DNA of 64,000 nt from a bacterium (lineage in GTDB: Bacteria > Desulfobacterota > Binatia > HRBIN30 > CADEER01): positions 372,001 through 436,000 of the forward strand of contig JAHBUY010000004.1 of NCBI GenBank assembly GCA_019637795.1. The letters are read 5' to 3'. The notes beneath the pieces were generated by a model. That model did no database searches and was not told the DNA's origin. It was given only the letters and a program-made list of their open reading frames with translations. The position numbers and the translations under genes were made by a program. The stretch's first letter is position 1; every line of letters starts with the position of its first letter. Positions 18,583-51,105 of this stretch are shown piece after piece.

Positions 18583-18602
18583 GCCGCGGCGACGGAGCAG
18601 CG

Positions 18603-25140: not shown

Positions 25141-26436
25141 TCACGCCGTCTCCGGCTTCCCCATCACCATGCGGGCCACGCGCCGGCCGATCTCGACCGC
25201 GTAGTTGGTGCCGCGGTCCCACGGGTAGACCTGGCTCATGCTGGCCAGCCACAGGCCGGGCAGCGGCGTCTTGATCGCCGGGATGTTGCGCGAGTGGTTG
25301 CGCAGCGGGATGGGCTGGGCGTACTCGGTACGCCAGACCCAGTGCTGCTTCACCCAGCCGCGGTCGAAGGACGGGTTGAAGCGCGACAGCGACGGCAGGA
25401 AGCGCTCGAGCAGCGCGTCGGCCGAGAGCTGGAAGTACTCGTGGCCGGGCGGCAGGTAGTCGCCGCAGTACAGGATGTGGTCGCCGCCGTAGTGCTCGGG
25501 GGGCAGGAAGTTGGTGTGCTCGACCAGTGCCAGGTAGGGGAAGCCCGCCTCCTTGGGGAGGTTGAACCAGTAGTAGTCGGTGAGGCGCTGGCGCAGCGTG
25601 ATCACCATCACCACGGCGCCGAGGCTCTTCAGGTTGGTGAGCTGGGCGCTGTACGCGGCGGGGAGCTGCGGCGCCATGCGCGCCAGGGCGCGCGGCGCGG
25701 TGGTGGCGATGCAGTGGTCGACCACCAACGGCCCCTCGGGCGTGGTCACGGTCAGGGTCCCGTCCGGATTGGTGGCGATCTGCGCGATCGGCGCCTCGAG
25801 GGCGATCGTCGCGCCCGCGGCCCGTACCCGATCGGCGAGCAGGTCGAGGAAGGCCTGGAAACCGCCCTCGAAGGTGCCGAGGCGCATCGTCCGCGATTTG
25901 ATGCGGGCCCACAGCCAGGCGAGGTTGATGTCCTTGTAGTGCTCCTCGCCGAACTTGCCGACCAGCATCGGCCGCCACACCGCGTCGTAGGCGCGCCACC
26001 CGAGCCAGCGCTGCAGCCACTCGTGCGCGGTGTGCTTCTCCAGCGCGATGCCGTTGGGCAGCGCCTTGAAGTAGGCGCCGACGGCGCCGAAGCGGACGAC
26101 ATCGAGCCAACTGAAACCGGGGAAGGTGATCCAGCGCCGCGGCGAGTCGAAGGGATAGAACCTCCCCTCGTGGTAGACGACGGTGGTCGGCCGCGGGAAG
26201 ATCACCTTGTCCCTGGCGCCCAGCTCGTCGATCAGGCCGAGGATGTCGGCATCGGACTGGAACCAGTGGTGGTAGAATTTCTCCAGCGTCCAGTCCCAGT
26301 GGTCGGCCTTGAATCCGGCGGCGAGCCCGCCGACGCGGTTCGCGGCCTCGAACACGGTGACGGAATGACCGGCCCTGGTCAGGTCGTATGCGGCGGCGAG
26401 GCCGGCGGCGCCGGCACCGATGATCGCGATCTTCAT
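25141..26436 (-). CDS. FAD-dependent amine-oxidase-like oxidoreductase
   Basis: 431 residues. The N-terminus [19 protein letters not shown] is an FAD-binding Rossmann motif, followed by [14 protein letters not shown]. The family includes protoporphyrinogen-oxidase-like, phytoene-desaturase-like and UDP-galactopyranose-mutase-like flavoproteins. The C-terminal [28 protein letters not shown] carries the second FAD contact. Proteins of this exact type (YHHWFQSD near 55) recur in surface-polysaccharide loci, where substrates remain unknown. GGTGGAGG precedes the ATG, with a GATAAC -10-like element about 17 bases upstream. It is convergent with the histidine kinase gene. Confidence 0.8.
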
Positions 26437-27344: not shown

Positions 27345-29483
27345 ATGGCGGTGCTGATCTGGTGGTTGCTGCTCGAGGCGCTGGGCATCCTGGCGCTTCC
27401 GCTGCTCTTTCCGCTGTTCGGACGCGCGTCGGCGCACGGCTACCCGTTCGCCAAGATCGCCGGCCTGCTGCTGCTGACCTACGTCGCCTGGCTGCTCGGC
27501 TTCGCCGTCCCCTACGGCACGGCGCTCGCCGTGTCGCTGGCCGGCTGGATCGCGCTGGCGGCGGCCCTGGCCGTGGCGCAGCGCGCCGCGATCGGCGCCT
27601 GGCTGCGCGACGGCGGCTGGCGGCAGGTGGCGCGCGCCGACGGCCTGTGGACCATCGGCTTCCTCTTCTTCGTCTTCCAGCGCTGGATGGCGCCCGACAT
27701 CTTCGGCGCCGAGAAGTACATGGACTTCGCGTTCATCAACGGGCTGCTGCGCGCCGATGCCATGCCGCCCTACGATCCGTGGATGAGTGGCGACACCATC
27801 AACTACTACTATTTCGGCTACCTGATGTTCGCCAACCTGCTGCGCCTGGCGCCGGTGGCGGACACCGTCGGCTACAACCTCTGCGTCGCCACCGTCGGCG
27901 GCCTCGCCTTCTCGCAGACCGCCTGGGTGGTGCTGGCGCTCACCGCGCGCTGGGGCCTGGCGGTGCTCGGCGGCGCCATGTCGTCGCTCCTCGGCAACCT
28001 CGACGGCGCCTGGCAGTTCCTCGAGAAGGGGACGTTGCGCGGCATGGACTACTGGCGCTCGTCGCGCATCGTCGCCAAGGGCGACACGATCAACGAGTTC
28101 CCGTTCTTCTCCACCATCCACGGCGACCTGCACCCGCACTTCATGGTGCTGCCGGTCGGCATCCTGCTGCTGGCGGCGCTGCTCGACGAGCGCCTGTTCC
28201 CGTCGCGCCCGGAGGACGCGCCCGCCAACCCCTGGCGCGCGCTCGTGCCCTGGGCGCTGGTCACCTTCGTGCTCGCCGCGATGGTGGCGATCAGCAACTG
28301 GGAGCTGCCGATGGGCGTCCTGGTGGTGGCCCTGCTCGCCGGCCGCGCCATCCCGCTGACGCCCCTGTTGTCGCGCCAGCGCCTGCGCCTCGGCGTGCGC
28401 CTGGTGGTGATGCTGGTCGGCATCTACGTGCTCTTCCTCCCCTTCTACCTGCACTTCGTGCCGCCGCTGGTGAAGCCGGGGCCGAACGAGCCGTGCATCG
28501 GCTCCGCCTGCTTCACCATCGCCACCACCTCGCTGGCGCAGTTCGTCACCGTCTTCGGCCTGCTGCTGTTCCCGCCGGCGGTGCTGGTGGCGGCGCGCGG
28601 CGCCCGCCTGCTGCCGAGCGGCGGCGGCGAGGGCCAGCATCTGCTCTACGCCGTCGTCGGCCTGGCGATCGCCGTCGCCGCCTTCGCCGGCAACGCCGTG
28701 CTGCCGCTGCTGGCGATCATCGTCCTCGGCGCGCTCGCCGTCGCCTACCGCGACAGCGACGGCCCCGAACGCGCCGGCTTCCTGCTCATCGCCCTCGGCG
28801 CCACGGCGCTGCTCGCCTGCGAGCTCGCCTTCATCAAGGACTCGTACGGCGAGAAGCTCTACCGCATGAACACCGTGTTCAAGCTCTACTTCCAGGGCTG
28901 GACGATCCTCGCCATCGCCGCCCCGTGGGCGCTCGGCCGGCTGCAGGCGCGCCAGTGGCAGTGGGCGCCGACGGCGCGCCTGATCGGCGGCGCCACCGCG
29001 GTGCTGGTCGCCATGTCGGCCTGCTACCCGCTCGGCATCACCCTCGACCGCATCAACTCGCCGTGGAAGACGCTCGACGGCAACGCCTACCTGCGGCGTG
29101 AGCACCCCGACGACTTCGCCGCCATCGAGTGGCTGCGCGCCAACGTGCCGGAGCAGGCGGTCATCCTGGAGGCGACCGGCAACCCGTATTCGTACTTCGC
29201 CCGCTTCTCCGCCAACACCGGGCTGCCGACGGTGCTCGGCTGGGCGAACCACGAGGGCCTGTGGCGCGGCCACGACAACACGGTGATGGCGCGGCGCGAC
29301 GACGTCATGCGCATCTACAACGGCCCGTCGCTGGAGGCGGTTGCGCCGCTGCTCGACAAGTACGGCGTCCGCTACATCCTGGTCGGCGACGTCGAGCGCG
29401 ACGAGCACGCCGCCGGGCTGGCGAAGTTCGCCGAGCTGCCGGTGGCGTTCCGGAGCGGCGGGACGGTGGTGTACCGGCGATGA
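27345..29483 (+). CDS. DUF2298 (Chlor_Arch_YYY) polytopic membrane protein
   Basis: 712 residues, strongly hydrophobic with about 13-15 predicted helices, then a soluble C-terminal domain (about 582-712). The family hallmark YYYxG is at residues 154-158 (NYYYFGY). AEKYMDFAFINGLLR and PFFSTIHGDLHPHFM are further conserved stretches. Members, first noted in Archaea and Chloroflexi, have no established function; fold and context place them near GT-C/PMT glycosyltransferases that use lipid-linked sugars. A GT4 glycosyltransferase and a methyltransferase follow on the same strand. The soluble C-terminal domain is related to the matching part of the 1639-residue protein at 41107-46026. Confidence 0.85.
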   Translation: MAVLIWWLLLEALGILALPLLFPLFGRASAHGYPFAKIAGLLLLTYVAWLLGFAVPYGTALAVSLAGWIALAAALAVAQRAAIGAWLRDGGWRQVARADGLWTIGFLFFVFQRWMAPDIFGAEKYMDFAFINGLLRADAMPPYDPWMSGDTINYYYFGYLMFANLLRLAPVADTVGYNLCVATVGGLAFSQTAWVVLALTARWGLAVLGGAMSSLLGNLDGAWQFLEKGTLRGMDYWRSSRIVAKGDTINEFPFFSTIHGDLHPHFMVLPVGILLLAALLDERLFPSRPEDAPANPWRALVPWALVTFVLAAMVAISNWELPMGVLVVALLAGRAIPLTPLLSRQRLRLGVRLVVMLVGIYVLFLPFYLHFVPPLVKPGPNEPCIGSACFTIATTSLAQFVTVFGLLLFPPAVLVAARGARLLPSGGGEGQHLLYAVVGLAIAVAAFAGNAVLPLLAIIVLGALAVAYRDSDGPERAGFLLIALGATALLACELAFIKDSYGEKLYRMNTVFKLYFQGWTILAIAAPWALGRLQARQWQWAPTARLIGGATAVLVAMSACYPLGITLDRINSPWKTLDGNAYLRREHPDDFAAIEWLRANVPEQAVILEATGNPYSYFARFSANTGLPTVLGWANHEGLWRGHDNTVMARRDDVMRIYNGPSLEAVAPLLDKYGVRYILVGDVERDEHAAGLAKFAELPVAFRSGGTVVYRR

Positions 29484-29559: not shown

Positions 29560-30705
29560 ATGCGCGTTCTCATCGCCCTCACCTACTACCGCCCCCACGT
29601 CAGCGGCCTGACGATCTACGCCGAGCGGCTGGCGCGCGGGCTGGCGCGGCGCGGCCACGCGGTGACGGTGCTGACCTCGCGCTTCGCGCCGGCGCTGCCG
29701 GAGCGCGAGCAGCGCGACGGCGTGCAGGTGGTGCGCGTGCCGGTGGCGCTGAAGGTGAGCAAGGGCGTGATCATGCCGCGCTTTCCGGCGGCGGCGCTGG
29801 CGGCGATCGCCGACGCCGACGTCGTCAACGTGCACATGCCGCAGTTCGAGGCGGCGCTGCTCGCCTGGCTGGCGCGGTGGCGGCGGCGCGCGGTGGTGCT
29901 CACCTACCAGTGCGACCTGCGGCTGCCGGCGGGCGCCTTCAATCGCGCCGTCGAATGGAGTCTGCGGCCGCTCAACCGGCTTGCCGCCGCCGCCGCCGAC
30001 GCGATCGTCGTCAGCAGCGACGACTACGCCCGCCACTCGCCGTTCCTGGCGCGGTCGATGGCGGCGGTGCGCGCCATCGCGCCGCTCGTCGACCTGCCGG
30101 AGCCGACCGCCGCCGACACCGCGGCGCTGCGCGCCGCCTGGGGCGCCCAGCGGCCGACCATCGGCTTCGCGGCGCGCTTCGCCGCCGAGAAGGGCGTGGA
30201 GTATCTGCTCGAGGCCCTGCCGGCGGTGCTGGCGGCGGTGCCGGAGGCGCGGGTCGTGTTCAGCGGCGCCTACAAGGACACGGTGGGCGAGGAGGCGTAC
30301 TGGCAGCGCCTGGCGCCGCTGCTCGACCGCCACCGCGACCGACTCACCTTCCTCGAGCTGCTGCCGATGGAGCAGATGCCGGCCTTCTTCGCCGCCTGCG
30401 ACGTCCTGGCGGTGACCAGTCTGAACTCGACGGAAGCGTTCGGCATGGTACAGGTCGAGGCGATGCTGTCCGGCACGCCCGTCGTCGCCACCGACCTGCC
30501 CGGCGTCCGCGAAGCGGTCGGCCGCACCGGCATGGGCCTGATCGTGCCGCCGCGCGATCCCCAGCGCCTGGCGGCGGCGCTGGTCGAGGTGCTGGGCGAC
30601 CGCGCGCGCTTCGTCCGGCCGCGCGCCGACGTCGTCGCCGCCTTCGACCTCGAACGCTCGCTGCGCCAGTACGAGGAGCTCTTCGCGGCGGTGCGGCGGC
30701 CATGA
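29560..30705 (+). CDS. Glycosyltransferase family 4 protein
   Basis: 381 residues with the GT-B fold. The N-terminal domain opens LIALTYYRPHVSGLTIYAERLARGLARRGH, the acceptor-side loop. The C-terminal donor domain has TIGFAARFAAEKGVEYLLEA and the retaining E-x7-E type segment STEAFGMVQVEAMLSGTPVVATD. It transfers a sugar from a nucleotide donor to a lipid carrier or glycan in the cytoplasm; donor and acceptor are not evident. The ATG directly follows a hairpin without a Shine-Dalgarno. The stop overlaps the methyltransferase ATG. Confidence 0.9.
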   Translation: MRVLIALTYYRPHVSGLTIYAERLARGLARRGHAVTVLTSRFAPALPEREQRDGVQVVRVPVALKVSKGVIMPRFPAAALAAIADADVVNVHMPQFEAALLAWLARWRRRAVVLTYQCDLRLPAGAFNRAVEWSLRPLNRLAAAAADAIVVSSDDYARHSPFLARSMAAVRAIAPLVDLPEPTAADTAALRAAWGAQRPTIGFAARFAAEKGVEYLLEALPAVLAAVPEARVVFSGAYKDTVGEEAYWQRLAPLLDRHRDRLTFLELLPMEQMPAFFAACDVLAVTSLNSTEAFGMVQVEAMLSGTPVVATDLPGVREAVGRTGMGLIVPPRDPQRLAAALVEVLGDRARFVRPRADVVAAFDLERSLRQYEELFAAVRRP

Positions 30706-31442
30706 GCGAGGCGCCGCGCAAACCGGCCGCGGCGGCGCGGCCGCCGGCGAGGTCGCCCTACACCGAGACGTACTACGCGCGGCACGGCCTCGCCGGCGAC
30801 CGCATCGCCCTCTGGTTCTACGCCCGCCTGGTTCGCCGCCTGCGGCCGCAGGGCGGCCGCCTGCTCGACTTCGGCTGCGGCACCGGCCACCTGCTGCGCC
30901 GCCTCAGCGATCACTTCGAGGCGTACGGCTACGACGCGTCGGCCGAGGCGCGCGGCGCCTGCCGGCTGACGGCGCCCGACGCCGTGGTGCTCGAGGAGTG
31001 GGAATCGCTGCCGGCCGGCCACTTCGACGTCATCGTCGCCCTGCACGCGCTCGAACACCTGCCGCAGCCGCGGCCGGTGGTCGAGTCGATGGTCCGCCAC
31101 CTCGCGCCCGGCGGCCTGCTGCTGTTCGTGGTCCCCAACCCGAGCGGCCTCGGCCATCGCATCAAGGGCCGCCACTGGTTCGCCTATCGCGACCCCACCC
31201 ACGTCAGCGTGCTCAGCCGCGGCGAGTGGCTGACCATCGCCCGCCGCTGCGGCCTGACCGTCCGCTGGGTGCGCGGCGACGGCATGTGGGACCCGCCCTA
31301 CCTGCCGCTGCTGCCGGTCGGCTTCCAGCGCCTGCTCTTCGGCGCCCCCGCCGGCATCCAGCTCATCCTGCCGCTGCGCCGCCCGTTCCTCCCCGACACC
31401 CTGGGCGAGTGCCTGATCGTCGCGGCGGAGCGGCCGCGCTAG
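30702..31442 (+). CDS. Class I SAM-dependent methyltransferase
   Basis: 246 residues; the start overlaps the previous stop (ATGA). SAM-binding motif I is LLDFGCGTGHLLRRL, the acidic residue of motif II follows in YGYDAS, and HALEHLPQP is motif IV of the Methyltransf_11/23 type. The C-terminal third contains an apolar stretch that could contact membrane lipid or a lipid-linked glycan. Methyltransferases of this sort next to GT4 enzymes usually cap or modify surface glycans, which is an inference from context. Confidence 0.85.
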   Translation: MSEAPRKPAAAARPPARSPYTETYYARHGLAGDRIALWFYARLVRRLRPQGGRLLDFGCGTGHLLRRLSDHFEAYGYDASAEARGACRLTAPDAVVLEEWESLPAGHFDVIVALHALEHLPQPRPVVESMVRHLAPGGLLLFVVPNPSGLGHRIKGRHWFAYRDPTHVSVLSRGEWLTIARRCGLTVRWVRGDGMWDPPYLPLLPVGFQRLLFGAPAGIQLILPLRRPFLPDTLGECLIVAAERPR

Positions 31443-33171: not shown

Positions 33172-33224
33172 GTGTTCGCATCCCCCGCGGCGGCGATTGA
33201 CACGACCGCGACCGGGTGCCGAAC

Positions 33225-36200: not shown

Positions 36201-36638
36201 GTCGACGCGGCCGAGGGCGCGGCCGCCGACCCCGCGACGCCGGCGGCGCGCGATGCCGGCGACGCCGGGCCGGTGCTCGACGCCGCGGCGCGCGCGGCCT
36301 ACCGGGCCCGTCTGCTCGAGTTGCGGGAGGCGCTCGACGAGGCGGAGCTCGACCACGACCTCGGCCGCATCGAGCGGTACCGGTCCGAAATGGAAGCGCT
36401 CGCCTCCCAGCTCGCCGAGGCCACCGGCCTCGGCGGTCGCGAGCGGCGCGTCAGCGCGCCGGCCAATCGCGCCCGCGTGGCGGTCGCCAAGGCGGTGCGC
36501 ATCGCCCTGGCGCGCATCGACACCCATTGCGGCGACTTCGCCAGCCACCTGCGGCTGACCATCCGCACCGGCACCTTCTGCTGCTACGTGCCCGACCCGC
36601 TGCGACCGACCGCCTGGGACCTCGGGCACGACGGCTGA
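33225..36638 (+). CDS. Large AAA ATPase with TPR-like repeats (STAND-type signalling protein)
   Basis: 1137 residues from the ATG at 33225 (a GTG at 33216 and an ATG at 33237 are alternatives; none has a Shine-Dalgarno). FVGRASELARLEGAL leads into a Walker A GGEPGIGKTRLADEL near 43-57 and a Walker B LLLVLDDLHAAD near 158-170. An alpha-helical TPR-like region fills about 420-930. The last 190 residues (FRREGEHWVIGLG near 949, then RGFTYIAHLL and RTGTFCCYVPDP) form a C-terminal module known from other multidomain ATPases and cyclases, function unknown. No DNA-binding domain or kinase is visible, so the output is unclear. The 3' end overlaps the convergent cupin gene by 55 bases. Confidence 0.82.
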   Translation: MAPAMEAAAPLAPPPFVGRASELARLEGALAAAAAGQGALYLIGGEPGIGKTRLADELTRRAAADGWATAWGRCWESGGAPAYWPWVQALRALVAELPADLVTSRVAAAPDLLHVLPELRGRLPDPPALEPPDAELGRFRVLDATTSLLRAGAAARPLLLVLDDLHAADHSSLLLLRFLARELRDLRLVVVGTYRQSETAGDPEVAAAFADLVRDGHRVTLHGLSADAVADYLAATAPARATPATIGAVHAASDGNPLFVSEMVRLWSTPGGAGDGALAIPEELRGTLRRRLAPLPEAVRRVLTLAAVQGREFDLVLVEHVIGTGGGAADAPVGTSPVSAALDLAQAAGIVRPLADTLGRFTFAHALMRDVLHDDLPSAERATLHRRVAAAMERMHAANLDAHLEPIAHHYAQAALGGEVDKAVEFARRAGDRALGLLAHEDAVQHFQHALRALELRRDGARPGDAVLRCELLLSLGDACWGTGDLGRMRATYERAADAARGLARAEGAHRLARAALGLGGRQQRAHVAFDQVVVGLLEESAAALGEEDSPLRARVLARLAYALYTRPDSAALRRRLCAEAEAMARRIGDPGTLRWVLNDARWALWGPDAIEQRLEMGRELSRIAERLGNVELVLDEHAWRVVDLLELGDRAAVDAELSTYAGVAREHRRPWSLWYVARFEAMRALLEGDFAAAEGHAGTALEAINRAALADAQLIYGTQLLAIRTEQGRLAELEAGMQAFVAQYPAVEIWRYVDAYLQAELERPEAARAALVRVLDPRQPALPEGYLRLAACSYLAEACAAVGDQARAAALYDLLLPYAGRAVVVGFGVICRGAVDRYLGLLAATVGRGDAAAAHFEAALAIDARLRAAPCEARTRYAYAQMLLARPGDAAAHAKGTALLAAAGAIAARLGMDDLRARIERLAAAHQPAPRAAPRAAAATTGALPCVFRREGEHWVIGLGDRPARLRDLRGFTYIAHLLGRPGDEVHVFDLVDAAEGAAADPATPAARDAGDAGPVLDAAARAAYRARLLELREALDEAELDHDLGRIERYRSEMEALASQLAEATGLGGRERRVSAPANRARVAVAKAVRIALARIDTHCGDFASHLRLTIRTGTFCCYVPDPLRPTAWDLGHDG

Positions 36639-36973
36639 CGGCCGTCCTCCGCGGGCGAGACGACGAGCAGCGTGCAGCCGACCTCGCTGTGCGCCGGCCC
36701 CTCGGCCGCATCCGTTACCGCGACCGCCGATCGCCCCGGCCACAGCCGCCGTCCGCCGTGGATCAGCTCGCCGTCGAGCACGAACAGCAGGTGTGGCTCG
36801 ACGCCGGCTATCGCCAGCGTCGCGCCGGGGGCGAAACGGAACAGCCGCAGCCACCAGCCGGCGACGACACCGAGGTCGCGCTCGAACACGCGCGGCGCCG
36901 CCGGCGACGGGCGCCACTCCCCGGCACGCGAGAGGGCGCCCTCGCCGGCCGAGCGCGGATACCGTTCATCCAT
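36584..36973 (-). CDS. Cupin-domain protein (ChrR-like)
   Basis: 129 residues from the ATG at 36973. The segment LFRFAPGATLAIAGVEPHLLFVLDGELIHGGRRLWPG gives a short beta-barrel of the cupin type seen in ChrR-like anti-sigma domains, but the usual His ligands of motif 1 are mostly absent (only one His before LLFVLDGE), so metal binding is doubtful. The gene runs toward and overlaps the last 55 bases of the AAA ATPase gene. The true end could be affected if the overlap is not real. Confidence 0.5.
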   Translation of the reverse strand: MDERYPRSAGEGALSRAGEWRPSPAAPRVFERDLGVVAGWWLRLFRFAPGATLAIAGVEPHLLFVLDGELIHGGRRLWPGRSAVAVTDAAEGPAHSEVGCTLLVVSPAEDGRQPSCPRSQAVGRSGSGT

Positions 36974-37053
36974 GCCCACCCCCGACTCCCGCCCGACGCC
37001 GAGCTGGCGCGCCGGCCGGGCGCGCGGCCCCGAACCCGCCGCGCCGCCGGCGA

Positions 37054-37491
37054 TCAGTTGATCGCCGGCCCCTTGCAGGCCTCGCCGTGGAGGTCGCTGA
37101 CGGTGGCGCTGGTCAGCGACGGCTGACCGAAGGTGAGGACGATGATGTCCGCGCCGCTGGACGTGAGGTCCGGGTAGTCCATGCCCATGGCGATCTCCTG
37201 GGTGTAGGGCGCGGTGAAGAGCGCCCCCTGGCGAATCACGGTGACGCCGAAGCGCAGGATCGCGCCGTCCGAGGAGCGGCACACGGTACCGTGCGCGACG
37301 CCGCTCGTGCCGCCGGTGCCGCGGAACGGCTGACACTTGCCGGCCCCTGGCAGCTTCCACGAACGCGCCACCAGAAACGGCGTCGCCCCCGCTCCGGCGT
37401 AGATGCAGAGGTCCTTGGCCATCGCCGCGCCCGGCCCGACCAGCAGCAGGCCGGCGATGGCGGTAGCGGCGATTCCCGACAGACGAGCCAT
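37054..37491 (-). CDS. Small secreted protein of unknown function
   Basis: 145 residues with a clear signal peptide (MARLSGIAATAIAGLLLVGPGAAMA-K) and an exceptionally good GGGAGGATGGG ribosome-binding region. The mature part is about 120 residues with four Cys, probably two disulphides. I do not recognise a fold. Its upstream region shares a palindrome and a GGTTGGTAGG box with the cysteine-repeat protein gene at 32437-33123, so the two secreted products are probably co-regulated. The cupin gene follows on the same strand 80 bases downstream. Confidence 0.72.
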   Translation of the reverse strand: MARLSGIAATAIAGLLLVGPGAAMAKDLCIYAGAGATPFLVARSWKLPGAGKCQPFRGTGGTSGVAHGTVCRSSDGAILRFGVTVIRQGALFTAPYTQEIAMGMDYPDLTSSGADIIVLTFGQPSLTSATVSDLHGEACKGPAIN

Positions 37492-37535
37492 ATCCCATCC
37501 TCCCTCGTGTGGTTGGTTCCCGGCGCCACCGGGCG

Positions 37536-37575
37536 CCTACCAACCAGGCGTGACCGGGCGGGTCACACCGTGACC
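37536..37575 (-). promoter_or_regulatory. Shared palindrome and GGTTGGTAGG box upstream of the secreted-protein gene
   Basis: Read on the minus strand, GGTCACGGTGTGACC (37561-37575) is followed 15 bases later by GGTTGGTAGG (37536-37545), about 45 bases before the ATG at 37491. It matches the arrangement at 32321-32363 with one base changed in the palindrome centre. Confidence 0.6.
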
Positions 37576-37673
37576 TGCCGCCCGGCGGGCGAAGGCGTCC
37601 GGGACCGCGGCGCGGATCGCGATCGACGCTGTCGCGCCCCACGCCGCGGCGTGACTCGCACCCGCCGGCGCGC

Positions 37674-37679
37674 TACGGA
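37674..37679 (+). promoter_or_regulatory. Leaderless-type -10 element of the LLM oxidoreductase gene
   Basis: GC-TACGGA ends six bases before the ATG at 37686. GTGACT at 37651-37656 is a fair -35 with a 17-base spacer. No Shine-Dalgarno is present. Confidence 0.42.
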
Positions 37680-37685
37680 CGGCGC

Positions 37686-38537
37686 ATGGATCTCGGCGTC
37701 GCCATCTTCCCGACCGACTACACCATCCGCCCCGACGACTTCGCCCGCGCCTGCGAGGCGCGCGGGTTCGAGTCGGTGTGGTTTCCCGAGCACACCCACA
37801 TCCCGGCGAGCCGCCGGACCCCGTACCCGGCCGGCGGCGACCTGCCGCCCGAGTACTGGTCGACCTTCGACCCGTTCCTCGCCCTGACGGCGGCGGCGGC
37901 GGCGACCAGCCGCATCAAGCTGGCGACCGGCATCTGCCTCGTCGTCGAACGCGACCCGATCGCCACCGCCAAGGCGGTGGCGACGCTCGACGTCCTGTCG
38001 CGCGGCCGCGTGCTGTTCGGCATCGGCGCCGGCTGGAACGTCGAGGAGATGGCCAACCACGGCACCGACTACCGCCGCCGCTGGACGCTGCTGCGCGAAC
38101 GGGTGCTGGCGATGAAGCAGATCTGGACCCAGGAGGCGGCCGAGTTCCACGGCGAGCTGGTCGACTTCGATCCGATCTGGTCGCTGCCCAAGCCGGTGCA
38201 GAAGCCGCACCCGCCGATCATCCTCGGCAGCGCCTCGCGCAAGAGCCTCGACCGGGTGGTCGCGTACTGCGACGGCTGGGTGCCGATCGGCCTGGCGATG
38301 CGCGACCTGCCGGGCGCCATCGCGGCCCTGCGCGACAAGGCGACCGCGGCGGGGCGCGATCCCGCCACGATCGAGCTCTCCCTCTTCTGGGCCCCCGGCG
38401 ACGGCGATCAGTTGCGCCGCTACCGCGACATGGGCATCGCGCGCGCCATCCTCGCCGTCCCGCCGGCGGCGCCCGACGCCGTGCTGTCGATGCTCGACGG
38501 CTATGCGCCGCTCGTCGCCGAGCTGACCGCTGGCTGA
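37686..38537 (+). CDS. LLM-class F420-dependent oxidoreductase
   Basis: 283 residues of a luciferase-like monooxygenase fold. VAIFPTDYTIRPDDFARACEARGFESVWFPEHTHIP, SRIKLATGICLVVERDPIATAKAVATLDVLSRGRVLFGIGAGWNVEEM and HPPIILGSAS are typical of the F420-using subgroup found in mycobacteria and related lineages. It presumably reduces or oxidises a small organic substrate with coenzyme F420; the substrate cannot be inferred. Presence of this gene implies, but does not prove, F420 synthesis elsewhere in the genome. It stands alone between a divergent secreted-protein gene and a cyclase gene. Confidence 0.85.
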   Translation: MDLGVAIFPTDYTIRPDDFARACEARGFESVWFPEHTHIPASRRTPYPAGGDLPPEYWSTFDPFLALTAAAAATSRIKLATGICLVVERDPIATAKAVATLDVLSRGRVLFGIGAGWNVEEMANHGTDYRRRWTLLRERVLAMKQIWTQEAAEFHGELVDFDPIWSLPKPVQKPHPPIILGSASRKSLDRVVAYCDGWVPIGLAMRDLPGAIAALRDKATAAGRDPATIELSLFWAPGDGDQLRRYRDMGIARAILAVPPAAPDAVLSMLDGYAPLVAELTAG

Positions 38538-38633
38538 TGGCGCGGCCGGATCCCAGCCCGGCCGCGCGGGCTGCCGTGCGCCGGCTCCCCTTCTTCACCT
38601 CCTCCGGCCATCCGGCGGCGGGCTGAGTCCCCG

Positions 38634-39869
38634 GTGCGCTCACCGGCCGTCGAGCGCGCCATCGCCGCCGAACGGGCGGCCAACGTCCGCCTGCTCAACG
38701 GCGGGCGGCTCGTCGCGTTGCTGGTGGCGCTGGCGGTCGCGCTCGCCTTCGAGGTGCAGCGGGCCGTCAGCGGCATCGCCTACGTCGGCCCGTCGCTGGC
38801 CCTGCTCGGCGCCTACGGCGTTGCCGCCGCGCTGGCTTTCCGGATCGGCCGCGGGTCGGCGGCGCGCGCTCGACTGACCGGCTACGCCGCCGGGCTGGTC
38901 GACGTGCCGTTCGTCTACGTCCTGCTCGGCCGCCTGCACGCCAGCCTGGTGGTCGCTGGCTTTGCCGACGACGGCCGGGTCATCGCCGCCGGCGGCACCG
39001 CCTTCTTCCTGCTGCTGGTGTTCGTCTCCGCCGGCCTGCTGGCGCGCGCCCAGGTGTACACCACGGCGCTGCTGGCGGCCGGCTGCAACCTGGCGCTGCA
39101 GATCGGGGCGGGCGTCGACCAGGTGCAGGCGACCTTCTCGACCGTTGCCATCCTCTTCGGCGCGGCCGTCGGCCTGACGGTCAGCCGGCGCGGCCTGCGG
39201 TTGGTCAGCGACGTCGCCGTCCAGCAGCTCCGCCGCGAGCGCCTGGCCCGCTACTTCTCACCCCAGGTCGCCGAGGCGCTGGGCGAGCGCGGCGAGTTCG
39301 GCGCCGGGGAGATCCGCGAGGTGACGGTGTTGGTCGCCGACCTGCGCGACTTCACCACCCTGTCGTCGGGCCGCGACGGCGCCGAGACGGTGGCGATGCT
39401 GAACGAGGTCTTCGCCGTGCTGGTCGAGGTGCTGTTCCGCCACGGCGGCACGCTCGACAAGTATCTCGGCGACGGCCTGCTCGCCTACTTCGGCGCCCCG
39501 GTGGCGCAGCCCGACCACGCCGCCCGAGCGGTGCGCTGCGCGCTCGACTGCCGCGCCGCGCTCGTCGACCTCAACCGCCGGCGCGCGGCGCGCGGCGCGC
39601 CGGCACTGCGGCTCGGACTCGGACTGCACAGCGGCGCGGTGGTGGTCGGCGACGTCGGGGTCCCCGCCCGCCGCGAGTACACCCTGATCGGCGAGGCGGT
39701 GAACCTCGCCGCGCGCGTCGAGGAGGAGACCAAGCGGCGCGGCGAGGACATCCTGCTCACCGGCGCCACCCGCGCCCGGCTCGGCGACGCCGTGCCGCTG
39801 CGCGCCCTCGAGCCAATGTGGCCGCGCGGCGGCGCCGCGCCGCTCGACCTCTACGCCCCGCTCGGCTGA
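38634..39869 (+). CDS. Membrane-bound adenylate/guanylate cyclase (class III)
   Basis: 411 residues from a GTG at 38634. Five or six hydrophobic helices occupy about 20-190. The class III catalytic domain follows (about 215-405): VTVLVADLRDFTTLSS supplies a metal-binding Asp, TLDKYLGDGLLAYFGAP a second, and LRLGLGLHSGAVVVGDVG then YTLIGEAVNLAARVE the nucleotide-contact segments. Adenylate cyclase is the more common bacterial activity. The membrane part is a sensor of unknown signal. It lies about 96 bases downstream of the LLM gene on the same strand. Confidence 0.9.
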   Translation: MRSPAVERAIAAERAANVRLLNGGRLVALLVALAVALAFEVQRAVSGIAYVGPSLALLGAYGVAAALAFRIGRGSAARARLTGYAAGLVDVPFVYVLLGRLHASLVVAGFADDGRVIAAGGTAFFLLLVFVSAGLLARAQVYTTALLAAGCNLALQIGAGVDQVQATFSTVAILFGAAVGLTVSRRGLRLVSDVAVQQLRRERLARYFSPQVAEALGERGEFGAGEIREVTVLVADLRDFTTLSSGRDGAETVAMLNEVFAVLVEVLFRHGGTLDKYLGDGLLAYFGAPVAQPDHAARAVRCALDCRAALVDLNRRRAARGAPALRLGLGLHSGAVVVGDVGVPARREYTLIGEAVNLAARVEEETKRRGEDILLTGATRARLGDAVPLRALEPMWPRGGAAPLDLYAPLG

Positions 39870-41106: not shown

Positions 41107-44100
41107 ATGAGTAGCTCGCCCAGCTCACCCAGTCGGCTGCGTCTCTGGCTCGTCGCCCTGCTGGTCTTCGCGGCCGCGGTGCGGCTGGTCGGGCTCGATT
41201 TCGACGACAAGCACTTCTTCCACCCCGACGAACGGCGCATCGCCTTCGCCGTCGGGGAGCTGTCGTTCCAGCCGCTGCAGCTCAACCCGCACTTCTTCGC
41301 CTACGGCTCGTTCCCGTTCTACGTCAACCGCGCCGTCAGCAGCCTGCTCAGCAACATCGACCCGCGGATGGCGAACTACGACGGCGTCATGATGACCGGG
41401 CGCGCCGTCAGCGGCGTCATCGGCACGCTGACGGTGCTGCTGCTCACCGTGCTCGGGGCCCGCCTCTACAACCGCTCGGTCGGGCTGCTCGCCGGCTTCC
41501 TGCTCGCCGCCTGCGTGCTGCACGTGCAGAACTCGCACTACGGCACCACCGACATCTTCCTCACCTTCCTGGTCACCCTGGCGCTGTACTGCATGATCGG
41601 GATCGTCCAGCGCGGCTGGACGCGCGACTACGTCTACGCCGGCCTGGCGATCGGCTTCGCCGCCGCGACCAAGTTCAGCGCCCTGCCGCTGCTCGCGCCG
41701 CTCGCCGTCGCCGGCCTGGTGCGCATCCCGCGCGACGGCTTCCTGCGGGTCGCCGGCCGCGGCCTGCTCGCCGTCGTCTGCCTGGCCGCGGCCTTCGCCG
41801 CCGGACAGCCGTACGCGATCCTCGACTTCGCCAACTACGCCCGCGACATCACCGAGCAGAGCGGCATGGTGCGCGAAGCCGGCCGCCTGCCGTACACCAA
41901 CCAGTACATCGGGGTGGTGAAGTACTACTACGACCTGACCCAGATGTTCTGGTGGGGCATGACGCCGCCGCTGGCGATCGCCGCCATCTGGGCGACCGCG
42001 GCGCGGGTGGTCGGGGCGGTCCGCGAACGCTCCGCCACCGACGCCGTGCTGCTGGCGTGGGTGCTGCCGTTCTTCCTCATCACCGGCTCCTTCGACGTGA
42101 AGTTCGTCCGCTACCTGCTGCCGATCTACCCGATCATGATCCTGTGGGCGGCGGCGTTCCTGTGGCGCGCCGCCCAGCGCTCACTGCTCGGGCGGATCGC
42201 GATGTGGGGGGTGGCGATCGCCACCGGCCTGGCGGCGCTGGCGTTCCTGTCGATCTACACCCGGCCGCACACGGTGGTGACCGCCTCGGAGTGGCTCTAT
42301 CGCAACGTGCCGCCGGGCAAGGTGATCGTCACCCAGCACTGGGACGAGGGCTTTCCGCTGCCGCTGCCGGGGCAGAACCCGGGCAAGTACAAGGTCGACG
42401 ACCTGCCGTACTACGAGCCCGACACCCCCGGAAAATGGCGCGACATCGCCAACCGCCTCGCCGCCGCCGACTACATCGCCTTCCAGACCAAGCGGCTCTA
42501 CGGCGCGCTCACCATGGCGCCGCAGAAGTACCCGATCGCCAACAACTACTTCTACCAGCTCTTCGCCGGCGATCTCGGCTTCACGCTGGTCTACGACCAC
42601 GCCTCGCGCCCCGAGCTGCTCGGCCTGGAGGCGCCGGACGAGCTCGCCGACGAATCGATCACCGTCTACGACCACCCGAAGGTGCTGATCTTCGAGAACA
42701 CCGGCCGCCTCTCGGCGGACGAGCTGTACGAGAAGATCATGCACGGCATGCCGTCGAAGAAGCTGACCCGCACCGACCTGCTGCTGGCCGAGGCCAACCG
42801 GGTCGGCGGCACCAGCGAGCCGGCGAGCCCCATCCGCGCCAGCGTGCCGGCGCTGCTCTGGTTCGCGCTGATCGTCGAGCTGCTCGGAGTCGCCGGCTTC
42901 GCCATCCTGCGCCGCGCCCTGCCGGTGCCCGGGGTCTACGGCCTGGCCAAGGTCTTCGGCATCCTGCTCTTCGCCTACATCCCCTGGCTGCTGGTCAGCA
43001 CCGGCCAGGCGGCGTTCACCCGCGGCACGCTGGCCGCGACCCTCGGCGGGCTGCTGCTGTGGGGCGCCCTCGCCTGGCGGCGCGGCCGCGGCGACGAGCC
43101 GAGCGGCGAGTGGGCGCCGACCGAGCTGCTCTTCTGGGGCAGCTTCCTGCTGTTCCTGCTGGTGCGCGCCTTCAACCCGGAGATCTTCTGGGGCGAGAAG
43201 CCGATGGACTTCTCGTTCCTCAACGCGCTGATGCGCACCACGACGCTGCCGCCGCCGGAGCCGTGGTTCTCGGGCTCGACGCTGCACTACACCTACTTCG
43301 GGCACTACGTCGTCGCCGCCCTCGGCAAGGTCGGCAACATCCACCCCGGCCTGGTGTTCAACCTCGGCATCGCGCTCTTCGGCGCCCTCACCGCCAGCGC
43401 CGCCTTCGCGCTCGGCGGGGCGATCGGCGGCCGGCGCGGCATCGGCCTGCTGTGCGCGGTCTTCGTCGTGCTCATCGGCAACCTCGCCGGGCTGCGCGAG
43501 GTGCTGGCCCGCCACGTCATCAACTTCGACTACTGGTGGGCGACCTCGCGGGTGATCAAGGACACCATCAACGAATACCCGTTCTGGAGCTTCCTGTTCG
43601 CCGACCTGCACGCGCACGTGCTGGTGATGCCGTTCTCGCTCAGCTTCCTCGCCCTGGCGGTGTGGTGGGTGCGGCGCAGCGACGCGCCGGCGGTCATCAG
43701 CCCGCTGGCCACCGTCGTCCTGCTCGGCTTCCTCCTCGGCGCCATCATGGTGACCAACGGCTGGAGCTCGCCGACCTACATCCTGTTCTTCCCGTTCCTC
43801 CTCGGCTGCACGGCGCTGGCCCAGTCGTCGTTCGGCCGCGGACGGGTGGCGCTGCTCGGGGTCCTCGGCCTGGTCGCCGCCGGCCTGGTCGCCGCCAAGC
43901 TGGCGATGCCGCAACCGCCGCCGTGGCTGATCGAGCAGGTCGGCGATCCGCTCGCGGCGCGCCTGCTGCCGGCAGCCCTGGCCGGCGCGGCGGGGCTGTT
44001 CGTCCTCGTGCTGCTGCCGGCGCCGACGATCCTGACCGGCCTGCTGGTGGGCCTCGCCTACCTGCTGTTCCTGCCGTTCTGGCGCGACTTCAGCCCGCCG

Positions 44101-46026
44101 CCGCGCAACTTCGGCCTCGAGGATCAGTCGTTCGCCAACGCCTGGGACTTCGCCAACATCTTCGGCCTCTTCCTCTTCATCGCCATCCCCTTCGTGTTCG
44201 CGCTCTGGCGGCGCGCCCTGCGGCCGGTCGAGCAGCCGCTGGGGTTCGGCCGCCGGCTGGCGATGTGGCTGGTCGCCCTGACCGTGCTCGCCTGCTGGCT
44301 GGCCTCGGTGCCGGCGGTCGCGCACCTGCTGCCCTTCGGGCTGCGCGGCTCGCTGCGCCTCGGCCTGGCGATCCTCGCCGTCCTCTCGTTCTCGGTGGCC
44401 ATCCAGCGCGGCCTCACCTCGACGCAGCGGGTCGCGGTCAGCATGCTCGCCTTCGCCTTCGCGATCACCGCCGGCACCGACATGGTGTTCGTCTGGGATC
44501 GCATGAACACCATCTTCAAATTCTACCTCGAGGCCTGGTTCCTGTTCGCGGCAGGCAGTGCCGCCGCCACCGCCGAGCTGTGGCGCGGCCTGATCCGCCG
44601 GCCGGCGCTGCGCCGCGCCTGGCAGCTCGGCCTGGTGGTGCTGCTGGCGCTGGCGACGTTCACCGCCGTCAGCGGCATCTGGGCGGTGGTGCGCACCGAT
44701 CGCGTGCCGACGCCGGAGCCGACCCTCGACGGCACCGCCTATCTCGCCGAGCAGGCGCCGCTCGAGCGCGCCGCCTACGAGTGGCTGAACGACAACGTCG
44801 CCGGCATCCCGGTGGTCGCGGAAGCGTACGGCCCGTCGTACCAGGACTACGCGCGGGTGGCGATGAACACCGGCCTGCCGATCGTCCTCGGCTGGGACTA
44901 CCACGTCAGCCAGCGCGCCCAGCGCTGGCCGGACATCAACAAGCGCAAGGACGACCTGAAGCGGCTCTACACCACCGACAGCAAGCAGGTGGCGGCGGAG
45001 ATCCTGCGCAAGTACCACATCGCGCTGGTCTACGTCGGCGGCGTCGAGCGCCGCGCCTACAGCGGCGGCAACCTCAAGCGCTTCCAGGAATGGAACGACC
45101 TGCTGAAGCCGATCTACACCAACCCCGGCGTCACCGTCTTCGCGGTCGAGGGCCAGTACGCCGGCGCCATCCCGGTGAACGCCATCCAGGAAGTGCCGCC
45201 GGTGCCGGAGGGCGAGGAGGTCAAGGTCCAGGGCGCGCCCGGGCAACTGAGCCAGCCGCGCGGCCTGGCGCTGGACGGCGCGGGCAACGTCTACGTCGCC
45301 GACTTCGGCAACGACCGCATCCAGAAGTTCGACCCCGATTTCGGCTTCGTGAAGGAATGGGGCTCGCACGGCGACCTGCCGGCGCAGTTCAAGCAGCCCG
45401 GCGACGTCGCGGTCGGCCCCGACGGCAGCGTCTACGTCGCCGACACCTGGAACCAGCGCGTGCAGGTGTTCTCGCCCGACGGCGAGTACCTGCGCGAGTG
45501 GACCGACAAGTACTACGGGCCGCGCGGCATCGCCGTCGGGCCGAACGGCGCCGTCTACCTGGCCGACACCGGCAACCACAAGGTGCGCCGCTTCACCCCG
45601 GACGGGGTCGAGGATCGCGCCTGGGGCAGCCTCGGCAAGGAGCAGGGCCAGTTCACCGAACCGGTCGGCCTCGCCGTGGACAAGACCGGCAAGGTCTACG
45701 TCGTCGACAACGGCAATGCGCGCCTGCAGATCTTCGACCGCGACGGGGCGCTGATCGGCGCCTTCCCGGTCGACGGCTGGGAGCAGAAGGTGTTCTCCGA
45801 GCCGCACGTCGCGGTCGCGCCCGACGGCACCATCTGGGTGACCGTGCCGACCCGGCAGCTCATCCGCGCCTACCACGCCAAGGGCGGCGTGGTGAAGGAG
45901 ATCCAGGGCGGCGACGATCCCGCCCTGCCCTTCGACCGCCCGATGGGCATCGCCTACGACCCGCGCACCGACACGCTGGTCATCAGCGACCTCGAGAACC
46001 GGTTGGCGCGCGTGCCGGCGCCGTGA
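41107..46026 (+). CDS. GT39-type glycosyltransferase - DUF2298 - NHL propeller fusion protein
   Basis: A 1639-residue protein with three modules. Residues 1 to about 590 are a GT-C/PMT-like glycosyltransferase; HPDER at 39-43 sits where GT39 enzymes place their catalytic acidic residue, followed by many helices and a long extracytoplasmic loop. From about 600 to 1365 comes DUF2298, with HYTYFG at 727-732 in place of the YYYxG motif and PFWSFLFADLHAHVLVMPFS, ending in a soluble domain related to that of the 27345 protein. From about 1375 to the end, six NHL blades (for example NVYVADFGNDRIQKF, SVYVADTWNQRVQVF) form a beta-propeller, expected outside the inner membrane. A GT-C enzyme using a lipid-linked sugar, tethered to a protein- or glycan-binding propeller, is the best guess. 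Confidence 0.88.
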   Translation: MSSSPSSPSRLRLWLVALLVFAAAVRLVGLDFDDKHFFHPDERRIAFAVGELSFQPLQLNPHFFAYGSFPFYVNRAVSSLLSNIDPRMANYDGVMMTGRAVSGVIGTLTVLLLTVLGARLYNRSVGLLAGFLLAACVLHVQNSHYGTTDIFLTFLVTLALYCMIGIVQRGWTRDYVYAGLAIGFAAATKFSALPLLAPLAVAGLVRIPRDGFLRVAGRGLLAVVCLAAAFAAGQPYAILDFANYARDITEQSGMVREAGRLPYTNQYIGVVKYYYDLTQMFWWGMTPPLAIAAIWATAARVVGAVRERSATDAVLLAWVLPFFLITGSFDVKFVRYLLPIYPIMILWAAAFLWRAAQRSLLGRIAMWGVAIATGLAALAFLSIYTRPHTVVTASEWLYRNVPPGKVIVTQHWDEGFPLPLPGQNPGKYKVDDLPYYEPDTPGKWRDIANRLAAADYIAFQTKRLYGALTMAPQKYPIANNYFYQLFAGDLGFTLVYDHASRPELLGLEAPDELADESITVYDHPKVLIFENTGRLSADELYEKIMHGMPSKKLTRTDLLLAEANRVGGTSEPASPIRASVPALLWFALIVELLGVAGFAILRRALPVPGVYGLAKVFGILLFAYIPWLLVSTGQAAFTRGTLAATLGGLLLWGALAWRRGRGDEPSGEWAPTELLFWGSFLLFLLVRAFNPEIFWGEKPMDFSFLNALMRTTTLPPPEPWFSGSTLHYTYFGHYVVAALGKVGNIHPGLVFNLGIALFGALTASAAFALGGAIGGRRGIGLLCAVFVVLIGNLAGLREVLARHVINFDYWWATSRVIKDTINEYPFWSFLFADLHAHVLVMPFSLSFLALAVWWVRRSDAPAVISPLATVVLLGFLLGAIMVTNGWSSPTYILFFPFLLGCTALAQSSFGRGRVALLGVLGLVAAGLVAAKLAMPQPPPWLIEQVGDPLAARLLPAALAGAAGLFVLVLLPAPTILTGLLVGLAYLLFLPFWRDFSPPPRNFGLEDQSFANAWDFANIFGLFLFIAIPFVFALWRRALRPVEQPLGFGRRLAMWLVALTVLACWLASVPAVAHLLPFGLRGSLRLGLAILAVLSFSVAIQRGLTSTQRVAVSMLAFAFAITAGTDMVFVWDRMNTIFKFYLEAWFLFAAGSAAATAELWRGLIRRPALRRAWQLGLVVLLALATFTAVSGIWAVVRTDRVPTPEPTLDGTAYLAEQAPLERAAYEWLNDNVAGIPVVAEAYGPSYQDYARVAMNTGLPIVLGWDYHVSQRAQRWPDINKRKDDLKRLYTTDSKQVAAEILRKYHIALVYVGGVERRAYSGGNLKRFQEWNDLLKPIYTNPGVTVFAVEGQYAGAIPVNAIQEVPPVPEGEEVKVQGAPGQLSQPRGLALDGAGNVYVADFGNDRIQKFDPDFGFVKEWGSHGDLPAQFKQPGDVAVGPDGSVYVADTWNQRVQVFSPDGEYLREWTDKYYGPRGIAVGPNGAVYLADTGNHKVRRFTPDGVEDRAWGSLGKEQGQFTEPVGLAVDKTGKVYVVDNGNARLQIFDRDGALIGAFPVDGWEQKVFSEPHVAVAPDGTIWVTVPTRQLIRAYHAKGGVVKEIQGGDDPALPFDRPMGIAYDPRTDTLVISDLENRLARVPAP

Positions 46027-48792: not shown

Positions 48793-51105
48793 TCAGCGTC
48801 GGCGCTGGCCGCCCGCGCATTCGCCGGGCGTCAGGGCGTCGGCGGTGCTCCGCAGGTACGCCGAGCCGCCGCGCACCAGCAGCAGCGGCTTGCAGATCGG
48901 GCTGACGGGGAGGGTCGCGCCGGTGATGCCGAGGGTGTCGAAGCGCGCCGTCACCGACGTGCCGGCGGTGGCCACCTTCAGCGTGCCGATCGTCTCGCTG
49001 CCGAGGCGGACGTCGTAGACGCCGGCCGGGAGCTGCCGCGTTTCGACGGTGAGCTGCTCGCGTCCGCCGCCGCCGCGGTAGTAGACGGCGCCGCGCGCGC
49101 CGGGGCTGACGCCGGTGTTGCTCAGGGTGGCGCTCAGCTCCTCGTCGTCGACGTCCGGCGGCGCGTCGCCGGGCAGCGTGAAGCGCACCTCGCCGGCGTC
49201 GTCGGTGAGCTGCACGCGGCAGCCGCGCAGGTCCACCTGCGGCACGCCGAGAATGGCGTTGCCCCGCCCGTCGGTGTCGAAGCTGGCCACCGGCGTGTCG
49301 TCCACCCAGACCGTGTAGCGGCCGGGCGCCAGGTCGCGCGCGTGCAGGTCGATGGCGGTGCTGGCGCAGCGGCGCTGGAAGCGCATGCGCACCGCGCCGG
49401 AGACGCCGGCGGCGGTCGCCGCCAGCGGGATGATCGTCGCCACGCCGCCGCGGCCGTCGGCCGCCGGCGCCCAATGCGCCAGCGCATCCACCAGGGCGCG
49501 GGCGCGCGGGGAGCCCCAGCCGGTCGGGAAGTCCCACCCCGGCCCGGCGGCGAAGGCGCCGTTGTCGCCGGACACCACGTCGACGAACGGCGCCGGCGAC
49601 AGGGCGTCGGTGAGCGCCAGCTCGCAGAGCTGCGGCGCCGCCAGGCCGAGCGTGCCGCGCCCCGCGCGGGCGCGCGCCTGGTTGGCGAGCGCCACCAGCG
49701 CCGCCCAGATCGGCGCCCCGACGCTGGTGCCGCCGGCGGCCAGCCACCCGCCGTCGCTGAGCATCAGGTAGCCGCTGCCGAGATCGGCGTTGAAGGCGAC
49801 GTCGGCGAGCAGCCGCTGCGGGCTGGGGTGCATCTGCCACTGCGGCGCGGCGAAGCGGGTGCTGGCGCCGCCGCCGCTGCCGGGCCAGGCCGTCTCGTCG
49901 AAGCCGTCGCCGCGCGGGCGCAGCGCCGTGCCGCCGACCGCCAGCACGTACGGATGCGAGGCCGGGAAGCTGACGCCGGGCGCCCCGCCGCCGCAGGCGA
50001 AGGCGCCGTCGTCGCCGGAGGCGGCGATGACGGTGATGCCCTGGGCGGCGGCGCGCAGGAAGATCGCGTCGACCTGGCTCAGGTAGGAGCGCGGGTAATC
50101 GGTCTCGCAGCGGCCCCAACTGGTGGTGAGCACGGCGGCGCGATTGTCGGCGACGATGCGGTCGTAGGCGCGCAGCAGCGTCGTGCTGATGGCGTCGGTG
50201 CCGGCGTACACCAGCACCCGCGAGCCCGGGGCCATGGCCGAGGCCCATTCGACGTCGAGCGTCGTCTCCATCCGATCGCCGGCGCTCGCCGCCACCGGCG
50301 CCTGCGCGCCGGCGACCGGAATGAGCTCCACCGAGGACAGGTCGCGGGCGATCCCGTGCGCCCGCCAGAACGCCGTCAGGTCGGCCGGGTCGAACTCGTA
50401 GGCGGTGGCGATGGCGATCGTCGCCCGCCGCGCGTCCTCGCCGCGCACGCCGTCGGCGTACAGGGCGTCGAAGCCGTAGAGCTGCGCGATCGCCGCCGGC
50501 CCGAAGGGCGCCGCCGCGATGCCGGGCCGATCGGGGCCGGGATCGGGGGGCGCCAGCGCCGCGGCGGCGCCGACCGCGACCACCTGCGCCCCCAGCTCCT
50601 CCGGCACCTGCGGCGGGGCGGCGGTGACGGTGTGCACGCCGCGGCTGTCGCGGATCTGCAGCAGCCCGGTGCGCAGCGTCTGCGCGACGCGGACCGCCGG
50701 CCCCTCCGCGGTCACCTGCAGCCGCGACGGGGCGATCTCGATGATGCGCAGGCCGTGGCGGCGCAGGAAGCGCGCCGCCGCCGCCACCTGCGCCGCGCGC
50801 GGCGCGAAGCGGCGGGCGAACTCGCGCGCGCCGAGGAACTGCTGGTACCGCGGCGAGCGCGGATCGTGCACCGCGCGCACGAGCTCCTCGAGCGCGGCGC
50901 GATCGCGCCAGGCGAAGCCGAGCACGACGCGCACCGGCGCCTCGTCCGCCGGCGGGCCGAGGCGCACCGCGCCGCGCTCGAGCGCCATCAGATGCTGCTC
51001 GACGTCGACGCGCGTTCCGCTCGCCTGTAGTCGCGCCTCGGCAACGACCAGTCGTGGGACCAGGCAGGCGAACAGCAGAACGATCAGGCATCGGCGAGCG
51101 GTCAT
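48793..51105 (-). CDS. Secreted S53 family serine-carboxyl peptidase (sedolisin)
   Basis: 770 residues. A signal peptide (about 1-22) precedes an inhibitory pro-domain (about 35-185) with HDPRSPRYQQFLGAREFARRFAP. The catalytic domain follows: Glu280 and Asp284 in METTLDVEWA, the oxyanion Asp in AASGDDGAF, and the nucleophile Ser461 in GGTSVGAPIWAAL. Sedolisins are acid-active endopeptidases matured by self-cleavage. About 230 residues after the catalytic domain form a beta-rich tail with no recognised function, probably cell-surface or substrate binding. It is convergent with the TLP1-like gene only 6 bases away. Confidence 0.9.
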   Translation of the reverse strand: MTARRCLIVLLFACLVPRLVVAEARLQASGTRVDVEQHLMALERGAVRLGPPADEAPVRVVLGFAWRDRAALEELVRAVHDPRSPRYQQFLGAREFARRFAPRAAQVAAAARFLRRHGLRIIEIAPSRLQVTAEGPAVRVAQTLRTGLLQIRDSRGVHTVTAAPPQVPEELGAQVVAVGAAAALAPPDPGPDRPGIAAAPFGPAAIAQLYGFDALYADGVRGEDARRATIAIATAYEFDPADLTAFWRAHGIARDLSSVELIPVAGAQAPVAASAGDRMETTLDVEWASAMAPGSRVLVYAGTDAISTTLLRAYDRIVADNRAAVLTTSWGRCETDYPRSYLSQVDAIFLRAAAQGITVIAASGDDGAFACGGGAPGVSFPASHPYVLAVGGTALRPRGDGFDETAWPGSGGGASTRFAAPQWQMHPSPQRLLADVAFNADLGSGYLMLSDGGWLAAGGTSVGAPIWAALVALANQARARAGRGTLGLAAPQLCELALTDALSPAPFVDVVSGDNGAFAAGPGWDFPTGWGSPRARALVDALAHWAPAADGRGGVATIIPLAATAAGVSGAVRMRFQRRCASTAIDLHARDLAPGRYTVWVDDTPVASFDTDGRGNAILGVPQVDLRGCRVQLTDDAGEVRFTLPGDAPPDVDDEELSATLSNTGVSPGARGAVYYRGGGGREQLTVETRQLPAGVYDVRLGSETIGTLKVATAGTSVTARFDTLGITGATLPVSPICKPLLLVRGGSAYLRSTADALTPGECAGGQRRR

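Follow-up and report, generated by a model that had tools for sequence, protein, structure and literature searches.

No function has been assigned to the DUF2298 family (Chlor_Arch_YYY), and the literature searched yielded no experimental work on any of its members. This agrees with an earlier note on the DNA studied here, which regarded the family as being without known function; in the portion of the literature that was accessible, only a mention in a gene-neighbourhood table was found. AglS and Agl22 were considered as known DUF2298 proteins, but this found no support in the literature consulted and was dropped. The family is widespread, with members in 115 of 197 genomes sampled from the Methanosarcina phylum and in 104 of 151 sampled from the Bellilinea phylum (Chloroflexota). 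Among GT-C enzymes, the PMT1-PMT2 and POMT1-POMT2 heterodimers have two GT-C units side by side in the membrane. Agl23, encoded near DUF2298 in archaea, has been purified from Haloarcula hispanica and reported to translocate lipid-linked oligosaccharide, i.e., to be a flippase (PMC11182771).

We analysed a stretch of bacterial DNA of 64,000 nucleotides, referred to here as the window, which contains a single uninterrupted frame at positions 41107-46026 (+). The frame starts with an ATG at 41107, is open from 41098, and encodes 1639 amino acids. The earlier note had read a GT-C transferase, a DUF2298 domain and an NHL propeller in this one chain, and Pfam and NCBIfam analyses bear out both the description and the coordinates. 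The parts of the chain are as follows:

41107..42801, + strand: PMT/ArnT-like GT-C module 1, amino acids 1-565 (PMT_2/PMT matches, fold)
42829..43083, + strand: three extra helices heading DUF2298, amino acids 579-601, 610-631 and 639-659 (predicted helices, loop charges)
43111..44694, + strand: module 2, the predicted GT-C core of DUF2298, amino acids 669-1196 (PF10060/TIGR03662, GT-C fold, conservation)
44716..45156, + strand: outer C-terminal domain of DUF2298, amino acids 1204-1350 (AglB-like shape, profile comparison)
45157..46023, + strand: module 3, NHL beta-propeller, amino acids 1351-1639 (PF01436, structure match by sequence)

The whole three-part order is also present in close relatives from other genomes, and therefore the fusion does not result from a frameshift or an assembly error.

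Module 1 matched PMT_2 (amino acids 99-227, E 1.4e-11, 45.3 bits versus a cut-off of 26.1) and PMT (PF02366/GT39; amino acids 96-206, E 6e-8, 32.9 bits versus a cut-off of 22.7) in the Pfam scan. It has about 11 predicted membrane helices followed by an outer domain (amino acids 386-565), and its predicted fold gave Z scores of 30.9 for AglB, 28.6 for Pmt4, 28.4 for Pmt1-Pmt2 and 27.2 for ArnT. Residues of the active-site type are D41, E42, H144, D149 and R335, which are conserved in fused relatives. The Pfam scan of the window protein gave no match to the MIR domain of eukaryotic PMTs, module 1 scores far under the cut-off of the ArnT model, and no match to TIGR03663 (Agl23; cut-off 126) was obtained at E <= 0.01. 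Some module-1 sequences of fused relatives do weakly resemble TIGR03663 (E 6e-10, below the cut-off).

Module 2 was identified by PF10060 (amino acids 621-1147, E 2.5e-85, 287.7 bits versus a cut-off of 27.8) and TIGR03662 (amino acids 582-1347, 440.2 bits versus a cut-off of 300.25). When the DUF2298 profile was compared with the PDB by sequence, all matches were at chance level and no solved GT-C enzyme was reached, so the assignment given here rests on the predicted structure. The AlphaFold model of the DUF2298 part of the window protein has a pLDDT of 92 and a pTM of 0.92, and the only PDB matches found by Foldseek at E <= 1e-3 were GT-C enzymes (DPY19, 1.5e-8; OST, 4e-6; AftA, 3e-4). A structural aligner gave Z 19.9 for yeast STT3 (476 residues, 7.4 A), followed by archaeal AglB (17.4), ArnT (17.1) and Pmt4 (16.3). 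The convincing structural matches were all GT-C enzymes (STT3/AglB/PglB, DPY19, ArnT, PMT and Aft). The C-terminal domain alone aligned with that of AglB (3vu0_C) with Z 11.6 and 2.6 A over 116 residues, and hhalign against a profile of 12 archaeal AglB proteins found a relation in the C-terminal part (E 2e-6, probability 90%). Comparison of the DUF2298 and module 1 profiles gave a weak relation (E 2e-4, probability 47%) covering only 154 columns. DUF2298 is thus predicted to consist of a GT-C glycosyltransferase core that is preceded by three further helices at the N-terminus and followed by an outer domain resembling that of AglB. Since the deviation is 7 A over 476 residues, the modelled membrane core has clearly diverged from that of the oligosaccharyltransferases (OSTs). 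DUF2298 as an OST was rejected: the WWDYG acceptor motif of OSTs is absent from the window protein. At the roughly equivalent stretch the DUF2298 family has GW..H (GWxxH); WWD was carried by 12 of 14 archaeal STT3 ORFs scanned.

Conservation was analysed in an alignment of 61 DUF2298 domains from the window and the fetched loci. Seven residues are invariant in all 61, namely E123, E249, H261, H263, R558, N560 and K564 (A2 numbering). The active-site-type residues of module 2 in the window protein are E697, D701, D833, H835, H837, R1132, N1134 and K1138. Two of them lie in the first outer loop after the first GT-C transmembrane helix (669-689): E697 is a glutamate in 61/61, and the D701 position is occupied by D in 48 and by E in 13 sequences. 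Ten residues from both modules (D41, E42, R335, E697, D833, H835, H837, R1132, N1134 and K1138) are identical in 37/37 fusions. The family motif YYYxG reads YTYFG in the window protein (LHYTYFGH), confirming the HYTYFG reported previously; only the first Y is invariant in the alignment, and T occupies the middle position in 7 of the 61 members.

The model of residues 1-1200 shows a shared arrangement in the two modules: TM1 is followed by an acidic motif on the outer side and an amphipathic helix, and then by TM2 and TM3. The outer acidic motifs are D41/E42 in module 1 and E697/D701 in DUF2298, an acidic/His motif starts TM4 in each (H144/D149 and D833/H835/H837, respectively), and a conserved Arg is present further along (R335 and R1132). 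Both modules thus look intact in the model. Because DUF2298 is itself a predicted GT-C protein and both modules keep active-site-like residues, the chain as a whole is predicted to be a GT-C enzyme, a second GT-C enzyme and a propeller. Two complete GT-C active sites in a single chain would be uncommon among enzymes of this kind. The predicted fold and the conserved residues speak against the view of DUF2298 as a non-transferase partner module, taken in the earlier note. The fold in itself does not prove catalysis, because GT-C folds include non-catalytic members, one of which, PIG-U of the GPI transamidase, is among the structural matches of DUF2298, and because Agl23, which is also GT-C-like, is reported to act as a flippase.

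The model of residues 1-1200 has a pTM of 0.70 and a poorly predicted linker (residues 563-573), which makes the relative placement of modules 1 and 2 uncertain. Basic residues are present in loop 602-609 and in the loop after the third extra helix, and loop 632-638 has none. Module 1 would end outside, and the three extra helices would return the chain to the cytoplasmic side. With the chain back inside after these helices, both active sites would face outwards. The three helices are also present in stand-alone DUF2298, and so the domain would be topologically suited to follow another GT-C protein.

The NHL match (PF01436; E 1.6e-38, 129 bits in Pfam) corresponds to a six-bladed propeller at amino acids 1375-1636, in which six repeats could be read by eye, and which aligns by sequence with the NHL structures of TRIM71, Thin and Brat. 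This third module is a lineage-specific part of the architecture. PMT-DUF2298-NHL chains were seen only in Binatia, an unclassified bacterium (L030), some Acidobacteriota, HRbin30, CSSED10-310 and the order to which the window belongs. Chloroflexota carry such a propeller on a PMT-like protein encoded nearby in the cluster (L057, L058, L073, L077, L091 and L105), and loci L032, L036 and L043 have both arrangements. The genome of the window encodes two further PMT-NHL proteins, and the closest propeller, in an 882-residue PMT-NHL protein (L159, G000:C3:105573-108218), is 51% identical to that of the fusion. A further large GT-C-NHL protein, with a weak PMT_2 match and a hint of a laminin-G-like domain, has its start outside the window and its end within it (62049-64000, minus strand; L158). 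The propeller therefore moves from one GT-C enzyme to another within a single pathway, which speaks for a function there, most simply the docking of an acceptor or a partner.

The fusion of the first two modules is common. PMT-DUF2298 fusions were found at 68 of 89 loci, a set that is biased because it was fished with a fused query; 34 of these fusions are accompanied by a stand-alone DUF2298 at the same locus. The sampled Chloroflexota are less biased: using an ORF length of at least 1280 amino acids as a proxy for fusion, 74 of the 85 Chloroflexota genomes among those listed have a fused DUF2298. PMT-DUF2298 is therefore the usual form in this phylum and not exotic, and the fusion is not a singular case. 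DUF2298 is, on the other hand, more strongly linked in function to GT-C enzymes than the earlier note claimed: rather than occurring equally often with unrelated partners, DUF2298 had a PMT-type module as its only recognised N-terminal partner (68/89 loci of the biased set). In the phylum of the window itself, TIGR03662 is present in only 10 of 297 sampled genomes. DUF2298 is unfused in the archaea examined, and in Ktedonobacteria the two modules are encoded by separate neighbouring genes. An apparent N-terminal fusion of 1255 amino acids in an archaeon (L139) was rejected, being probably an over-extended frame with a GT2-like ORF overlapping on the other strand.

In the tree, the fused DUF2298 sequences, with a few unfused ones inside, form one group (SH-aLRT 88) that spans several phyla, and the stand-alone paralogue branches apart from it. 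The NHL-bearing fusions form a sub-group that includes two fusions in which NHL was not detected. Module 1 and DUF2298 co-diverge, their distances correlating with a rho of 0.52 versus 0.20 for the best of 500 shuffles. Chloroflexaceae contain PMT-DUF2298-DUF2298 chains of 2782-2863 amino acids (L068:5526-14117 and L059:1037-9385), which are followed by another DUF2298 gene. The idea that such a chain joins the fused protein with the stand-alone paralogue was dropped, since its second domain falls inside the fused group. A different tandem GT-C ORF, encoding 1431 amino acids, contains PMT_2 twice and matches STT3 weakly; it lies shortly beyond the end of the window in a region rich in GT-C genes (G000:C4:445494-449789, minus strand; L156:10495-14790).

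The window also contains the other members of a DUF2298 cluster:

25141..26436, - strand: PRK07233-family FAD oxidoreductase (465.6 bits versus a cut-off of 252)
27345..29483, + strand: stand-alone DUF2298 paralogue, 712 amino acids (PF10060 E 3e-84, TIGR03662 485 bits)
29560..30705, + strand: GT4 glycosyltransferase, a conserved neighbour of stand-alone DUF2298
30702..31442, + strand: class I methyltransferase, similar to those of Chloroflexota clusters

In the window, the fusion is set apart from these genes by others that span about 10 kb. The same gene order is seen at a Candidatus Binatia locus (L029), where the cluster is compact (kinase, PRK07233, DUF2298, GT4, fusion). The usual order in Chloroflexota is GT4, methyltransferase, GT-C, fusion, DUF2298, GT-C, with the last GT-C protein being weakly Agl23-like in L106. 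The archaeal order is Agl23, PRK07233, GT2, GT2, DUF2298, and the Agl23 neighbour in L061 matches TIGR03663 with 572 bits. These partners probably make and handle polyprenyl-linked sugars, the presumed donors. The PRK07233 protein consistently accompanies DUF2298, in archaea as well as in bacteria (L061, L129, L131, L134-L136). Its annotation is that of a hypothetical FAD oxidoreductase with kinship to HpnE/phytoene desaturases, and it may act on the polyprenyl carrier.

Other genes of the window include those for a STAND-like AAA ATPase (1140 amino acids), a luciferase-like monooxygenase and a class III nucleotide cyclase, which lie between the two halves of the cluster (33216-39869). Menaquinone-type genes at 17764-21919 encode an ECH (MenB-like) protein, UbiA, and a protein that joins an enolase-superfamily domain to an AMP-binding ligase, by its Pfam domains probably a MenC-MenE-like fusion. 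A sedolisin-type protease with a pro-kumamolisin activation domain is encoded at 48793-51105 (-), and an ORF of 1100 amino acids at 55176-58478 (+) has no Pfam match at E <= 0.001.

We favour, with moderate confidence, the reading in which the window protein is a tandem, two-site GT-C glycosyltransferase that works at the outer face of the membrane and uses polyprenyl-phosphate sugars. GT2/GT4 enzymes would make the polyprenyl-phosphate sugar carrier inside the cell. The three extra DUF2298 helices would reset the topology such that both active sites face outside, where each would take a sugar from such a carrier and transfer it to an acceptor, possibly a protein or a glycolipid. The two transfers may be coupled or consecutive, and the propeller, also outside, would most likely dock the acceptor or a partner. 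A broader proposal is tentative: DUF2298 would be a new family of outer-face lipid-linked-sugar transferases common to archaea and bacteria, and at the same time the two-site fusion would be an assembly line. As part of this joint proposal, two sugars might be added, or built and then transferred en bloc, while the acceptor stays unreleased and is held by the propeller; the covalent GT-C pair would be one not described before.

Rather unlikely, in our view, is that only module 1 transfers sugar and that DUF2298 is a GT-C-derived scaffold, or a subunit holding the acceptor or lipid, in an obligate pair. The presence of PIG-U chains among the structural matches is compatible with a non-catalytic role, and the separate neighbouring genes in Ktedonobacteria are as expected of a subunit pair; however, seven residues kept in 61/61 sequences are more than a scaffold needs, and DUF2298 stands without a fused PMT in the archaea examined. 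Somewhat less probable still is a flippase complex, in which both GT-C-fold modules would move polyprenyl-phosphate sugars across the membrane and transfer nothing. The archaeal gene neighbourhood, the reported activity of Agl23 and the weak TIGR03663 likeness of some fused module-1 sequences point in this direction. However, the module 1 studied here gave no such match at E <= 0.01, and both modules keep the outer acidic/His residues that characterise GT-C catalysis and that a protein acting only as a flippase could do without. The AglB-like outer domain and the propeller, too, point to an acceptor on the outer side. That neighbouring cluster genes merged by loss of a stop codon, without mechanistic meaning, is highly improbable: although the parts occur separately and adjacent in several lineages, the fused group spans several phyla, the module distances correlate and the PMT-DUF2298 order is fixed.

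The GT-C assignment and the named candidate catalytic residues make the function of DUF2298 testable by enzymology, and the recurrent partners (Agl23, PRK07233, GT2/GT4 and PMT-NHL) outline a surface glycosylation pathway common to archaea and bacteria. Pfam may already place PF10060 in its GT-C clan; in that case the fold would not be new, and the novelty would lie in the architecture and the cluster alone.

Compared with known systems, module 2 is a full member of TIGR03662/PF10060, a family described as uncharacterised, to which we here assign a predicted GT-C fold, an AglB-like domain, invariant residues and recurrent partners. STT3/AglB/PglB are its best structural matches, with the outer C-terminal domain included, but at the sequence level only the C-terminal part is similar, and DUF2298 differs from them in having three extra N-terminal helices and no WWDYG. 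Module 1 matches the PMT/PMT_2 models and is close to both the PMT (GT39) and ArnT (GT83) folds; it differs in the lack of a MIR match and in its low score against the ArnT model, and it is joined to a second predicted GT-C module and a propeller. Agl23 (TIGR03663, "flippase activity-associated"), the neighbour of DUF2298 in archaea and in some Chloroflexota, is GT-C-like by its PMT matches, whereas module 1 is not a member of TIGR03663. Finally, PMT1-PMT2 and POMT1-POMT2 consist of two subunits of one family, whereas the window protein would unite two GT-C families in one chain.
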